Source of the DNA: Candidatus Saccharimonadota bacterium
Lineage (GTDB): Bacteria > Patescibacteriota > Saccharimonadia > Saccharimonadales > Saccharimonadaceae
Direction of reading: 5' to 3'
Length of the DNA stretch: 64,000 bases
NCBI GenBank assembly: GCA_017430725.1
Contig: JAFRMK010000009.1
Location: forward strand, 1-64,000
Positions 45,304 to 56,013 of the stretch are shown here, in pieces. The notes beneath the pieces were generated by a model, which was not told the origin of the DNA, ran no database searches, and saw only the letters and a list, made by a program, of their open reading frames with translations. Within the stretch, counting starts at the first letter, position 1. Each line of letters begins with the position of its first letter. The translations under genes were made by a program, and so were the position numbers.

Positions 45304-45573
45304 ATGGCGAAAAAGAGTGCCGTCCTTCGCGATGAAAAACGACGCAAAATGTACGAAAAATACGCAGCAAAGCGCGCAGAGCTCAAAGCCGCCGGCGACC
45401 TGGAAGGTCTCCAGAAGCTGCCACGCAACGCCAGCCCAACTCGCCTCAAAAACCGCGATATGCTGGATGGCCGCCCCCGTGGTTATATGCGTCGCTTCGG
45501 CTTAAGCCGCATTAACTTCCGCGAAAAAGCCAGCAAGGGTGAAATCCCGGGCGTAACAAAGAGTAGTTGGTAA
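45304..45573 (+). CDS. rpsN: 30S ribosomal protein S14, zinc-free form
   Basis: An 89-residue S14 of the long, C-minus class: '[52 protein letters not shown]'. The CxxC...CxxC zinc site of short S14 is absent. The start at 45304 follows GGAGG and the rplE stop by one base. Confidence 0.95.
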
Positions 45574-45593
45574 GAGGAGAAAGGAGAGAAAAT

Positions 45594-45995
45594 ATGTCTA
45601 TTCAAACAACTGACCCAGTAGCAGATTTGATCACCCGCATCCGTAATGCCATCGCTGTAGGAAAGACCGAAATTCGCGTTCCTACTAGCAAGCTTAAATT
45701 CGCCGTTGCGGACAAACTGCAAAAGATTCACTACCTAGAAAAAGTCGAGTTGGAAGAGTCCGAGCCACGCTCAATTCTCCACGTCGTCATAAACAATCCA
45801 GACGAAATCGCTCGCATCAATGAAATCTCCAAGGTGTCAAAGCCAGGCCGCCGCGTTTACGCCGGCGTCAACGAGATTCCAAAGGTGAAATCCGGACGTG
45901 GCACCGTCCTCGTATCCACGAGCAAGGGTATCATGACCGGTCAAGAAGCCGTCAAAAACAAGCTGGGCGGCGAAGTCTTAATTAAAGTCTGGTAA
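45594..45995 (+). CDS. rpsH: 30S ribosomal protein S8
   Basis: A 133-residue S8 ('TTDPVADLITRIRNAI', 'SKPGRRVYAGVNEIPKVKSGRGTVLVSTSKGIMTGQEA'). The start at 45594 follows GGAG. In E. coli S8 represses the spc operon. Here it is the last gene before a terminator; rplF resumes the cluster after a 1-kb insertion. Confidence 0.96.
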   Translation: MSIQTTDPVADLITRIRNAIAVGKTEIRVPTSKLKFAVADKLQKIHYLEKVELEESEPRSILHVVINNPDEIARINEISKVSKPGRRVYAGVNEIPKVKSGRGTVLVSTSKGIMTGQEAVKNKLGGEVLIKVW

Positions 45996-46117: not shown

Positions 46118-46846
46118 TTAATAATTACACCAATACGTTAAGCGAATACCGCCGTTCGAATTAATGCAGGTGCGCATAATTACGTCGCATGGTGCGCCTT
46201 CCACGGCATTGTTACCATTTTCGTCCAACAGATCATAACTATTGTTATACCCATTGAAGCATGACGTACAAACCAAGTTGACTCGAGTACCGTCAGGATA
46301 GTCGATATGAGCCGTGTCGCCAACGGTGACATTCAGCAGACTCCCAAACTCCTGGGTCCGATGGTCGCTGATGACAAAGATGCCGTAATCGTAGCCGCAA
46401 GTCGCGCTATCGGAGCGATCTGTTACCGCTTGTGCTACCTGAAAGTTTTCAGGCGTAATTTCATAGTAGTACAGAGCAACGCTCACGCCATCCGGCAGAT
46501 ACAAACGACCAGCTGTGCCATAGTTCACGTTTTGCGGCACGACTGCCTCAGTTGACGGCTCGGTCGCCGCTGGCGCCTGCGTCGTGGTCGGCGGCGTCGC
46601 CGTAGTTGGCGCTTGCGTAGTTGTAGGCTGCGTAGTTGGCGCCTGCGTAGTCGATGTCGTCGATGCAGTCGTCGTGCTGACGGTCGTTGTCTCACGTTGG
46701 CGCATCACGCCAGTAATCAAAGACGTACCCATCGGCGTGCCGCCACCCTCGCTCAAAGCCAAAGAGTTATCTAAAAATAGATTAGCACCACAAGCTAATA
46801 AGGCTACTACGACTGTCGCAATGACCGATAAAGACAATTTCTTCAA
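46118..46846 (-). CDS. Secreted sortase-fold protein with Thr/Pro-rich linker
   Basis: About 242 residues. An N-terminal hydrophobic segment ends in LLAC, a possible lipobox; a Thr/Pro-rich linker (about 55-105) leads to a C-terminal sortase-like domain ('RLYLPDGVSVALYYYEI', 'VISDHRTQEFGSLLNVTVGDTAHI', 'IMRTCINSNGGIRLTYW') with His162, Cys227 and Arg235 in the sortase His-Cys-Arg order. It may therefore be a transpeptidase or a related peptidase. The start is TTG 46846, 8 nt after AGAGGGGG; an upstream ATG at 46924 would lie within the promoter. Codon use differs from the surrounding ribosomal genes, and it runs antisense within the spc cluster: a likely insertion. Confidence 0.65.
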   Translation of the reverse strand: MKKLSLSVIATVVVALLACGANLFLDNSLALSEGGGTPMGTSLITGVMRQRETTTVSTTTASTTSTTQAPTTQPTTTQAPTTATPPTTTQAPAATEPSTEAVVPQNVNYGTAGRLYLPDGVSVALYYYEITPENFQVAQAVTDRSDSATCGYDYGIFVISDHRTQEFGSLLNVTVGDTAHIDYPDGTRVNLVCTSCFNGYNNSYDLLDENGNNAVEGAPCDVIMRTCINSNGGIRLTYWCNY

Positions 46847-46904
46847 GTTTATTACCCCCTCTTTTAAGCAACAATTTAAAGGACGAAGATGTTCTTCGAT
46901 ACTT

Positions 46905-46934
46905 ATTATAACATATATAACCATATTTTGTCAA
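46905..46934 (-). promoter_or_regulatory. Promoter of the sortase-like gene
   Basis: On the minus strand TTGACA (46934-46929), 18-nt spacer, TATAAT (46910-46905). A CGAAG/CTTCG hairpin follows in the leader. Confidence 0.75.
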
Positions 46935-47029: not shown

Positions 47030-47566
47030 ATGAGTCGTATCGGAAAACTACCTGTAGACATCCCTGCAGGCGTGACAATCACGGTCGGCGACACTGAAAT
47101 CACCGTCGCTGGACCGAAGGGCACGCTCCAGGTTCCTGTCCAGGAAAACACCACGACGAAAGTCGAGGGAACCCAAATCATCGTAACGCGTAAAGACGAC
47201 GAGCCAAAGTCGAAAGCTTGGCACGGCCTTCAGCGCGCGCTACTCAATAATGCCGTAACTGGCGTCACTAAAGGCTTTGAGAAGAAGCTCGAAGTCAATG
47301 GCGTCGGCTTCCGTCTTTCGGGCGGCCCCAAAGAAATCGAGATGGCGCTAGGTTTTTCACATCCCGTGAAATATAAAGCTCCAGAAGGAGTCGACCTCAA
47401 GACCGACAAAATGGTCATCACCGTCAGCGGCATCGACAAACAAAAAGTCGGCCAAGTTGCCGCCGAGATTCGCGCACTCAAGAAGCCAGAGCCATACAAG
47501 GGTAAAGGCATTAAGTACGTCGATGAAGTTATCATCCGTAAAGCCGGTAAGGCAGGGAAGAAATAG
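47030..47566 (+). CDS. rplF: 50S ribosomal protein L6
   Basis: A 178-residue L6 with the two repeated domains and the signature 'PEPYKGKGIKYVDEVIIRKAGKAGKK'. It lies near the factor-binding site. AGAGG precedes the ATG. Confidence 0.97.
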   Translation: MSRIGKLPVDIPAGVTITVGDTEITVAGPKGTLQVPVQENTTTKVEGTQIIVTRKDDEPKSKAWHGLQRALLNNAVTGVTKGFEKKLEVNGVGFRLSGGPKEIEMALGFSHPVKYKAPEGVDLKTDKMVITVSGIDKQKVGQVAAEIRALKKPEPYKGKGIKYVDEVIIRKAGKAGKK

Positions 47567-49089: not shown

Positions 49090-50496
49090 ATGAATTTTAA
49101 GACGATTTTTAAGTCTTTCAAGAATAAGGAGATGCGCAAGCGAATTTTGACGGTACTTGGCATTCTTGTCGCCTACCGCATTCTCGCCCACGTCCCTGTG
49201 CCACTTGGAGACGCCAGCACATTCAAACAAGCCGTAGACAATCTGATTAACAGCACCGACCTCGGCGGCTTCATCAACCTGATTTCCGGTGGCGGTCTCA
49301 CGAATTTCTCGATTATCCTAGTTGGCCTTTCGCCATACATCACCTCGTCCATCGTCATGCAATTGCTGACCAAGGCCATTCCCCGCATGGAAGAATTACA
49401 CAACGACGGCGAAACCGGCCGCCGCAAAATCTCCCAATGGACACGCATTGCAACCGTTCCGCTCGCCATCATGCAGTCTTTTGCGTATGTCTATATTCTG
49501 TTCCAGGACGTCATCAGCGCCAACACCAACAGCACCCTAACGCTCACTAGCTATGACTGGGCCGTCGCCGTTACGGCAATGACCGCCGGCTCCGTTCTAT
49601 TGATGTGGCTCGGTGAACTCATCACCGAACAGGGTATCGGCAACGGTATTTCGACCGTGATTCTTTGCAGCATCGTCGCCAGCCTGCCAACCACCCTTTC
49701 GGCCGTCGGCACTCAACTGTTCGACACATCACAAGGCACACTCAATCTCTTTGGCTGGCTCGAGCTACCGGTCAATCCAACCATGTTTGGCATCGTGTGC
49801 GGCATCGGCGTAGGCCTGCTCGCCGTTCTCTACTTCTTGGTCAAACTCAACGAAGCACAGCGCATCATCACCATCAACTACGCCAAGCGCGTACACGGCA
49901 ACAGCGCCTATGGCGGCATCAAATCAATCATGCCAATCAAAATGATTGCCGCAGGCGTCGTTCCTGTCATCTTTGCGGTCGCCTTCTTGTCGCTACCATC
50001 CTTCCTTGGCCAAATCATTCAGCGCAACGACCCCAACAGCACCATCGCCCAAAACCTCGTCAAGTGGTTCTCGGCGCCAAATGCCAGCAATTTCACCGGC
50101 CTCAGCTGGGAAAGTTTCGTTTACCCAATAACCTACTTCCTGCTAGTCGTGATGTTCACGTATTTCTATACCAGTATCATCTTCAACGCCCGTGAGATTG
50201 CCGAAAATATCCAAAAACAGGGCGGCTTCATCCAGGGCGTTCGCCCCGGCCACGCCACCGAAAAATACTTCAAGCAAGTCGTTAATCGCCTCAACTTATT
50301 CGGCGCACTCTCGCTTGGCCTCATCGCCATGCTGCCATACATCGCCGACTACATATTCATCATGACACTTGGCTACCCCATCGGGTTGTCAATTTCCGGC
50401 ACCGGCCTGTTGATTATCGTAACAGTCGCAATCGAAAATCTCAGGCAAATTAACTCGCGCGCATTAATGGTAACATACGACGACTATAAGGAATGA
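49090..50496 (+). CDS. secY: Preprotein translocase subunit SecY
   Basis: A 468-residue protein with ten predicted membrane segments. Typical motifs include 'LVGLSPYITSSIVMQLLTKAIP', 'GIGNGISTVI', 'SAYGGIKSIMPIKM' and 'GFIQGVRPGHATEKYF'. It is the channel for protein export and membrane insertion, with SecE at 18675. A TTCACA and TAATAT pair 17 nt apart lies upstream. adk and map, its usual followers, are missing; a sortase-fold gene takes their place with an ATGA overlap. Confidence 0.96.
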   Translation: MNFKTIFKSFKNKEMRKRILTVLGILVAYRILAHVPVPLGDASTFKQAVDNLINSTDLGGFINLISGGGLTNFSIILVGLSPYITSSIVMQLLTKAIPRMEELHNDGETGRRKISQWTRIATVPLAIMQSFAYVYILFQDVISANTNSTLTLTSYDWAVAVTAMTAGSVLLMWLGELITEQGIGNGISTVILCSIVASLPTTLSAVGTQLFDTSQGTLNLFGWLELPVNPTMFGIVCGIGVGLLAVLYFLVKLNEAQRIITINYAKRVHGNSAYGGIKSIMPIKMIAAGVVPVIFAVAFLSLPSFLGQIIQRNDPNSTIAQNLVKWFSAPNASNFTGLSWESFVYPITYFLLVVMFTYFYTSIIFNAREIAENIQKQGGFIQGVRPGHATEKYFKQVVNRLNLFGALSLGLIAMLPYIADYIFIMTLGYPIGLSISGTGLLIIVTVAIENLRQINSRALMVTYDDYKE

Positions 50497-51182
50497 GCCT
50501 CAAAATCAGTAAAACAGCTAACAATATAATCAAAATTGTCGGGTGGATAGTTGTCATCATACTGATAGTCTTGATGGCCAAAATTCTCATCTGGGAGCGC
50601 GGATATTACTCCAATAAGAGCGCAGAGCGCCGTGCGACCGCCCCAGCCGTCATCACGGAAATTGCCGCCGCAATTGATCCGTCGGAAATCCAACCAGGCG
50701 AAGACGAACTGAACAACCACCAAGTCGCTGCCGACGAGCCGCGCTATCTGGACATCCCGCGCCTCGAGCTGCAAAAGGTCATCGTGCAAGGCACCACGGT
50801 CAACGTGCACGTACTCCAAGTTCCAGACAATATCTATGAAACCGCCTGGTATTCTGGCTCAGCTCGCCCCGGAAAAGGTGGCTATATCATCATCTCCGGC
50901 CTAGCCAGTGGCAATAGTGGCGCGGCCGGCGCTTTTGCCAACCTGGACAGCCTCGAATCTGGCGACGAAATCACGCTCACGACTGGCGCCGGCGAACAAT
51001 ACCACTACGCAGTCCGTTCTACGAGCATCATCGAAGAAAGCAACGCCAAAGAGCAGCTCATTGCCGCCCAGCAGACAATTGAAGACAAAGAGACCCTCGT
51101 CCTGGTAACAAACCTCAAGCCGAGTAACGCCGAAAACTACAGCTCCGTCGCCATCGTTCGCGCCGTCCGCAAAGACGACTAA
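50493..51182 (+). CDS. Membrane-anchored sortase homologue lacking catalytic His and Cys
   Basis: A 229-residue protein with an N-terminal membrane anchor (about 13-35) and a sortase-fold domain of class D/E type ('LDIPRLELQKVIVQGTTVNVHVLQVPDNIYETAWYSGSARPGKGGYIIISGLASG', 'GAFANLDSLESGDEITL'). At the AGH site of sortases it has SGL with Leu137 instead of His, and at the LITC site VTN with Asn207 instead of Cys; the Arg near the end (Arg223) is kept. It cannot be a normal transpeptidase, and may be a binding or regulatory pseudoenzyme. It overlaps secY by ATGA, so it is made together with the translocon. Confidence 0.75.
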   Translation: MSLKISKTANNIIKIVGWIVVIILIVLMAKILIWERGYYSNKSAERRATAPAVITEIAAAIDPSEIQPGEDELNNHQVAADEPRYLDIPRLELQKVIVQGTTVNVHVLQVPDNIYETAWYSGSARPGKGGYIIISGLASGNSGAAGAFANLDSLESGDEITLTTGAGEQYHYAVRSTSIIEESNAKEQLIAAQQTIEDKETLVLVTNLKPSNAENYSSVAIVRAVRKDD

Positions 51183-51241: not shown

Positions 51242-51532
51242 ATGGCTAGCCGAAAAAAGTCGACAAGAGGTATCAAGTCGAAGCGTCGTTCTGATGCTTC
51301 GAACGAAAACAAACCTAAAAAGGAAGTTATCAAGCTTACCGGTAGGGTTGTTGAGGCCCTACCGGGCACGATGTTTCGCGTCGAACTTGAAAACGGTCAT
51401 AATATTATCGCTCACATGTCGGGTAAAATGCGAAAAAACTATATCCGACTTGTCCCGGGCGACAAAGTCGACGTTGAACTCACGCCCTACGATCTCACGA
51501 AGGGGCGCATCAGCTATCGACAAAAAGATTAA
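51242..51532 (+). CDS. infA: Translation initiation factor IF-1
   Basis: A 96-residue IF-1: the S1/OB-fold core ('[63 protein letters not shown]') is preceded by about 28 basic residues not found in standard IF-1 (about 72 residues). It closes the A site during initiation. It heads the unit ending in rpsI. Confidence 0.95.
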
Positions 51533-55349: not shown

Positions 55350-55382
55350 AAAAAATCTCCGCCCAAACAGCGGAGATTTTTT
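55350..55382. terminator. Bidirectional intrinsic terminator
   Basis: AAAATCTCCGC and GCGGAGATTTT stem (55352-55380) with a 7-nt loop and A/T tracts on both sides. It ends rpsI and, on the minus strand, overlaps the stop of the membrane gene. Confidence 0.85.
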
Positions 55383-56013
55383 AATCGCCGAATTTACGAA
55401 ATTCCATATTCGGAAAGATGCTGCGCATCCGATCGTCACCATAATGTGTATCCAGATAACTGTCCACCCCGTTCCTGGCCGGCTGCTCCGCCAGCCGCGC
55501 TCCCCAACGCCATACCGCTAAGCTAGTCATCGTAAAATTCATCACTAGCCATACGGTCGCAATAATACCCAAAACGCGCCACAAGCGCCCCTCAAGCCGC
55601 CCCAGCACTCGCGCCAGCAAAGGGTAGAGCAAATAATAGAACAGCATACCCAAAATCCCCCAAAACATCGTCATTTCAAGGTTAATAAAGCCCCAGAAGG
55701 CGCCACCATAGTCCCAAGAACGCGAGCCGAACACCAGATTTTGCGCCAAACCGCTGACTAGCTCCAATACCGCACCACTCAGCGCAAATAGGACAAAGCG
55801 CAATACAAAATTCAATCGCCCAAAGCAGCGCGACAGCAGAAAAAGCACCACCAAACCAAGACCGTAGATAATGCAAAGCGGCCCCCAGACGGTCGCTGAA
55901 TGGTTCATCCAGGCGCCAAAACGATACCAACTCCACAAGCCCTCTATCACAAAACCCAACACGCTACCGAATAAGAACAACCACAACAGGCCAAAATAGC
56001 CAATCTTCTTCAT
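55381..56013 (-). CDS. Membrane protein of the putative ABC-transporter type IV (CmpB-like) family
   Basis: A 210-residue protein with five or six membrane segments. 'FGSVLGFVIEGLWSWYRFGAWMNHSATVWGPLCIIYGLG' and 'WDYGGAFWGFINLEMTMFWGILGMLF' match the PF06541-type layout (small, often called ABC_trans_CmpB although transport is unproven). Function unknown. It is convergent with rpsI and divergent from the acyl-ligase gene. Confidence 0.65.
   Translation of the reverse strand: MKKIGYFGLLWLFLFGSVLGFVIEGLWSWYRFGAWMNHSATVWGPLCIIYGLGLVVLFLLSRCFGRLNFVLRFVLFALSGAVLELVSGLAQNLVFGSRSWDYGGAFWGFINLEMTMFWGILGMLFYYLLYPLLARVLGRLEGRLWRVLGIIATVWLVMNFTMTSLAVWRWGARLAEQPARNGVDSYLDTHYGDDRMRSIFPNMEFRKFGD

Follow-up and report, generated by a model that had tools for sequence, protein, structure and literature searches.

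Sortases, which normally attach exported proteins to the cell surface, in general catalyse with three residues, a histidine, a cysteine and an arginine, and pseudoenzymes are well known in other protein families. Saccharibacteria are very small bacteria that live on surfaces, and their attachment to hosts is presumably governed by proteins of the cell surface. According to passages of PMC6744442, over half of CPR genomes carry a sortase family. A physical proximity of sortase and the export machinery has been discussed for streptococcal sortase and SecA, where passages of PMC3676364 describe a disputed association and mixed microscopy. In the open-licence PMC literature we found no published natural sortase pseudoenzyme, the inactive sortase in the relevant passages of PMC3516528 being an engineered mutant. 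Within the same literature, passages of publications on Saccharibacteria and Patescibacteria sortases did not deal with the gene described here, and the word ‘sortase’ is absent from the main text of PMC10633639. Here we describe a sortase-domain gene that follows secY in Saccharibacteria and that, in one clade, almost certainly encodes a conserved pseudoenzyme.

The SecY-linked gene and its former active site

The gene was found in the window, meaning the whole 64,000-nucleotide stretch of DNA that was analysed, where the open reading frame list places ribosomal genes downstream of infA (Table 1). The first-pass annotation had called this reading frame and its ATGA overlap with the secY stop, and both proved real. 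It had also called the domain sortase-like, which was borne out by a PF04203 match (E=3.3e-15; score 56.4 bits, cut-off 26.6). Below, copies lacking all three catalytic residues are called dead and those keeping them active; PF04203 was also above its cut-off in all five other family members scanned (three dead, two active).

Table 1. Features of the secY–sortase–infA locus in the window
Feature	Position	Strand	Basis or remark
secY, 468 aa, preprotein translocase channel	49090..50496	+	PF00344 E=9e-90; TIGR00967 above cut-off
Sortase-domain pseudoenzyme, 229 aa	50493..51182	+	ATG overlaps stop of upstream secY (ATGA); orthologues found
Single hydrophobic segment, residues 15–33, predicted N-in membrane anchor	50535..50591	+	Mean hydropathy 3.06
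Sortase domain, residues 81–229	50733..51179	+	PF04203 aligned to residues 86–225
Former catalytic His site, Leu137	50901..50903	+	Alignment to SecY-linked orthologues
Former catalytic Cys site, Asn207	51111..51113	+	Alignment to SecY-linked orthologues
Former catalytic Arg site, Val219	51147..51149	+	Alignment column; 6bwe comparison; triad counts
infA, next gene downstream	51242..51532	+	Defines secY–sortase–infA order; open reading frame and cross-locus gene order

A hydropathy scan of the protein detected one strong hydrophobic segment and no second one, and the net charge before this segment is +3. Together these features predict a protein anchored N-inside by one N-terminal membrane segment, with its domain outside the cell. 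The membrane segment is followed by a conserved WExxYY stretch, and residues K30, W34, E35, Y38 and R47 are invariant among 30 non-redundant dead sequences. The closest solved-structure matches of the protein were sortases. AlphaFold2 models of the full protein with one orthologue (mean pLDDT 53, pTM 0.50) and of the domain alone (pLDDT 48, pTM 0.48) were both too weak for reading the former active site, and only their fold matches were used: the top 50 Foldseek matches listed for the poor first model (pLDDT 53) were all sortases (best E=3.5e-6), and the best VIA Z score for this same low-confidence model was 7.1.

Three other features of the neighbourhood were recorded. In the window and in locus L052 the infA product is 94–96 aa long and extended by a basic stretch at its N-terminus, compared with 74 aa in L053 and L054. 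A 268-aa Thr/Pro-rich, mucin-like and presumably exported protein is encoded on the opposite strand (46118–46924, −) within the ribosomal-protein operon, between the reading frames at 45567–45995 and 47030–47566. Directly after the ribosomal genes, also on the opposite strand, lies a gene for a PF06541 (CmpB-like) membrane protein (55381–56013, −).

The catalytic sites were compared in an alignment of 89 unique sequences, each with SecY upstream on the same strand and with duplicates merged; three contig-edge fragments (L033, L085, L088) and four loci with no SecY upstream within the fetched stretch (L001, L087, L126, L128) were left out before counting. His, Cys and Arg were complete in 48 sequences, Cys alone was lost in four, and all three were lost in 37, which derive from 36 genomes (G030 contributes two loci). 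Alignment to SecY-linked orthologues that keep these residues upheld the earlier assignment of the His site to Leu137 and of the Cys site to Asn207. The same annotation had regarded Arg223 as a retained catalytic residue, and here it was mistaken: the catalytic Arg column sits four residues upstream, at Val219. That column holds Arg in 52/52 non-dead sequences and in the Corynebacterium diphtheriae sortase chain 6bwe, while at column 223 the active copies differ (L054 has Tyr and L144 has Lys) and the dead ones carry Arg, Gln, His or Lys. With Leu137, Asn207 and Val219 at the triad columns the whole triad is gone, and the window protein has none of the residues by which a catalytic sortase is recognised.

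Across the dead clade the His site is I, L or V in 36 sequences and Q in one, and the Arg site is I, L, V or F in all 37. The distance between the Cys and Arg sites has also changed, to 12, 13 or 7 residues, compared with 14 in 52/52 of the other sequences. The match to the sortase profile and the strong purifying selection described below would both be expected if the protein still acted on peptides through other residues. This is improbable, because nearly every dead copy has hydrophobic residues where the triad used to be, Asn occupies the Cys site in only 4/37, and a search for a replacement Cys or His conserved across the clade found none.

Distribution and history at the secY locus

Genus labels (g1, g27, g32, g133) were used as given by the search tool. 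Among 45 genomes assigned to the same genus as the window (g1), the gene was present in 40, as 38 full-length copies and two contig-edge fragments. In the remaining five neither the SecY-linked sortase nor secY was found, and since secY was missing too these genomes are uninformative on gene loss. Thirty-six of the 38 full-length carriers had no triad residue and two (G013 and G002) had all three; the two fragments also lacked triad residues at the sites they cover, as judged by eye. In the other genera of the family the sortase at this locus had the full triad, apart from four copies that had lost only Cys. These loci were the best 30 from 55 genomes selected for having a match, and the g27 sequences were hand-picked from the listed matches, mostly high-ranked ones, so that ‘active elsewhere’ does not describe a random sample.

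It had been anticipated that relatives keeping His and Cys at this locus would expose a local sequence error. Such relatives do exist, in other genera and in the two genomes labelled as congeners, but they do not imply an error; they mark the ancestral state. Beyond these intact relatives nothing suggests that the window was misread or misassembled, and the explanation can practically be set aside, as the same three losses occur in 36 genomes, one of which is also the named MAG CAMJLE010000011.1.

Trees were built with FastTree. Support for a single clade of dead sequences was SH 1.0 in the sortase tree (37/37) and 0.988 in the SecY tree, and in both the clade lay nested among carriers of active sortase. 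Fitch counting on the SecY tree placed the active state at the ancestral nodes along the path to the dead clade, although the immediate sister relation of the clade was weakly supported (0.168) and some deep SecY nodes were low (0.168, 0.197). The two active ‘g1’ genomes grouped with g27 in both trees, and g1 may therefore not be monophyletic. G030 carries two secY–sortase loci, L017 and L082; L082 differs hardly at all from L023, which belongs to a different genome, and is probably bin contamination.

Outside the family, inspection by eye found infA within 1.5 kb after secY in 15/15 loci and no sortase, adk or map between the two genes in any of them; in 14 out-of-family genomes with a sortase match, the match was not near the listed position of secY. 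The lack of a sortase at these secY loci indicates that the family probably acquired the SecY-linked gene at its base or close to it. Eight family loci have secY without a SecY-linked sortase. One scan of viral contigs with A2 found no relative. The 15 out-of-family loci also contradict the proposal that the sortase replaced adk and map, since relatives without the sortase have neither gene at this place. ADK-family genes were located away from secY in 7/7 genomes tested, including three without the SecY-linked sortase (G110, G060 and G069), and adk was therefore not displaced by it.

Selection on dead and Cys-only copies

In seven close pairs of dead sequences dN/dS (NG86) was 0.02–0.21, three of the pairs coming from one near-identical group and thus not all being independent; close pairs were relied on because dN/dS of wide pairs was near saturation. 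The divergence of the sortase relative to SecY was 2.29 for dead copies, 2.15 for g27 with the two labelled congeners, and 1.92 for other active copies. Both the low dN/dS and a ratio near that of active copies indicate that the dead clade is constrained. The constraint has a changed distribution. From active to dead copies, conservation fell from 0.97 to 0.42 at residues 135–141, from 0.85 to 0.37 at residues 204–210 and from 0.66 to 0.34 at residues 211–229, with no drop at residues 1–12, 13–29 and 142–160; in the alignment, conservation is collapsed mainly around the former active site. For the sortase domain alone the ratio to SecY was 2.25 in the dead clade compared with 1.81 and 1.65 in the active groups, and this somewhat faster evolution means that part of the constraint on the domain was relaxed. 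Conversely, the N-terminal 47 residues evolved more slowly in the dead clade (2.19) than in the active groups (2.58 and 2.67). An apparent N-terminal gain of conservation, seen against all active copies, was discarded: against g27 and the two labelled congeners conservation was only retained, and the rate modestly slower. By this comparison the weight of selection has shifted modestly, away from the active site and to the membrane anchor.

The Cys-only copies present a different picture. They comprise L055, L107 and L118 (g32) and L113 (g133), in which Cys is replaced by Phe or Thr and His and Arg are kept. The four lie in separate parts of the SecY tree but together in the sortase tree with low support (0.445). 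Their sortase/SecY divergence ratio of 3.95, from only five pairs, makes them appear fast-evolving, and two g32 loci (L057 and L061) have secY without the sortase. To judge from these rates, the Cys-only copies look like genes in decay, more so than the dead clade does. Both observations suggest that a SecY-linked sortase can decay, and the dead gene might likewise be on its way to loss. This we regard as very improbable: every dead-clade genome with a readable secY region has the gene, the copies contain no internal stops, dN/dS is far below 1, and the overall rate relative to SecY is nearly unchanged.

Possible roles beside the translocon and comparison with known sortases

The earlier suggestion of a dead sortase tied to the translocon gene found strong support across genomes on both counts, pseudoenzyme status and gene linkage. 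In the window and at all 37 dead loci the gene has SecY before it and infA after it on the same strand in the fetched stretches, and the distance from the secY stop to the sortase start is −4 to +13 nt in 37/37 dead loci. Among active relatives, L118 with its untraceable SecY being left out, this distance runs from overlapping genes up to a gap of 97 nt. The loss of all triad residues combined with retention beside secY under selection suggests a second, non-enzymatic job, and we put the probability that the dead sortase is a selected, non-catalytic adaptor at roughly one in two.

Gene order and trees show that a sortase gene entered the secY–infA interval, probably in an ancestor of the Saccharibacteria family, and was passed on together with secY as an ordinary enzyme with His, Cys and Arg. 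Along the branch leading to one clade the three catalytic residues were lost and the Cys-to-Arg stretch was shortened, after which the dead gene remained tightly linked to secY and subject to purifying selection. The likeliest reading is that the pseudoenzyme now serves as a non-catalytic adaptor or holder at the Sec exit that binds emerging surface-protein precursors or partner proteins, and that transpeptidation is left to the sortases with a complete catalytic site, one of ~430 aa and the other of class B.

The window genome does contain three further sortase matches, all with catalytic motifs by eye: one of 440 aa, a type found across the genomes searched, and two that are class-B-like. 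By eye, L001 likewise retains H, C and R. L003 scores as a class B sortase under TIGR03064, and its catalytic motifs are intact in sequence. A strong orthologue of L003 occurs in 35/36 dead genomes, the one lacking it being G020 (73% complete), and in 0/2 active ‘g1’ genomes and 0/15 genomes of other genera; within these 15, the match in G342 is a distant one of 40%, and those in G125 and G137 are weak and confined to the N-terminus. Because the dead clade is one lineage, this co-occurrence amounts to a single evolutionary event and is weak, and a putative hand-over of catalysis to the class B sortase is suggestive, no more. The class B sortase that almost every dead-clade genome carries and most active relatives lack lies at L149:7219–8130 (G000:C4), beside genes that, from their appearance by eye, are presumably nusB and leuS.

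Whether the adaptor would work at the translocon itself is a separate question, and physical work there we hold only as a tentative reading, at somewhat below even odds. Substrate sorting or holding at the translocon would be compatible with the predicted topology, the secY linkage, the retained domain and the presence of LPxTG-type proteins in the genome, although C-termini of this type are shared by dead and active genomes. The narrower proposal that the pseudoenzyme is a Sec accessory subunit, catching LPxTG-type precursors as they leave SecY and passing them to the class B or the ~430-aa sortase, is unlikely. The lost residues include the surroundings of the active-site groove, so peptide binding may have been lost too. 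A role as stand-in for a missing SecG was ruled out, SecG being present in 16/16 genomes tested.

Adjacency to secY need not mean action with SecY, as the locus may only give strong constitutive expression. The retained protein could instead serve in the envelope or as a structural component, independently of Sec, and its position would then only reflect inherited ribosomal-operon expression. The locus was inherited from an active ancestor, so that linkage is no evidence of a new Sec role, and the constraint is spread over the fold and the membrane anchor. Against this stand the uniformly tight spacing in the dead clade, where active copies are more variably placed, and the slower N-terminal 47 residues, which fit a membrane partner without specifying SecY. 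A Sec-unrelated envelope role, itself a possibility held at distinctly less than even odds, is nearly as likely as non-catalytic binding at the Sec exit or close to it. If the selected adaptor did act as a translocon subunit, recognition would be split from catalysis in the anchoring of surface proteins. The active form, the dead clade and the Cys-only losses all occur at one conserved locus, and with these three states one can address which functions a sortase has apart from catalysis and whether there is a physical link between sorting and export.

Among described sortases, class F (NF033748) was the best NCBIfam match of the dead protein at 48.5 bits, and the active SecY-linked L034, L053 and L064 scored 91.3, 73.4 and 69.4 bits; all four fall short of the 166 bits that class F requires. 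Weaker matches of the dead protein were to class E and class D sortases. It differs from class F in having no His, Cys or Arg, in the shortened Cys-to-Arg stretch of its clade and in being encoded behind secY. The active SecY-linked sortases (for example L034, L053, L059 and L064) are its orthologues by position (secY–sortase–infA), length and trees; they retain H, C and R, of which the dead clade has none. L003, the class B sortase (TIGR03064), also belongs to the sortase superfamily, but to another class and at another place in the genome. With streptococcal Sortase A near SecA, the ExPortal idea treated in passages of PMC3676364, the SecY-linked pseudoenzyme shares the notion of a spatial coupling between export and sorting. 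In those same passages localisation studies conflict, and the streptococcal enzyme, unlike the window protein, is catalytically active.
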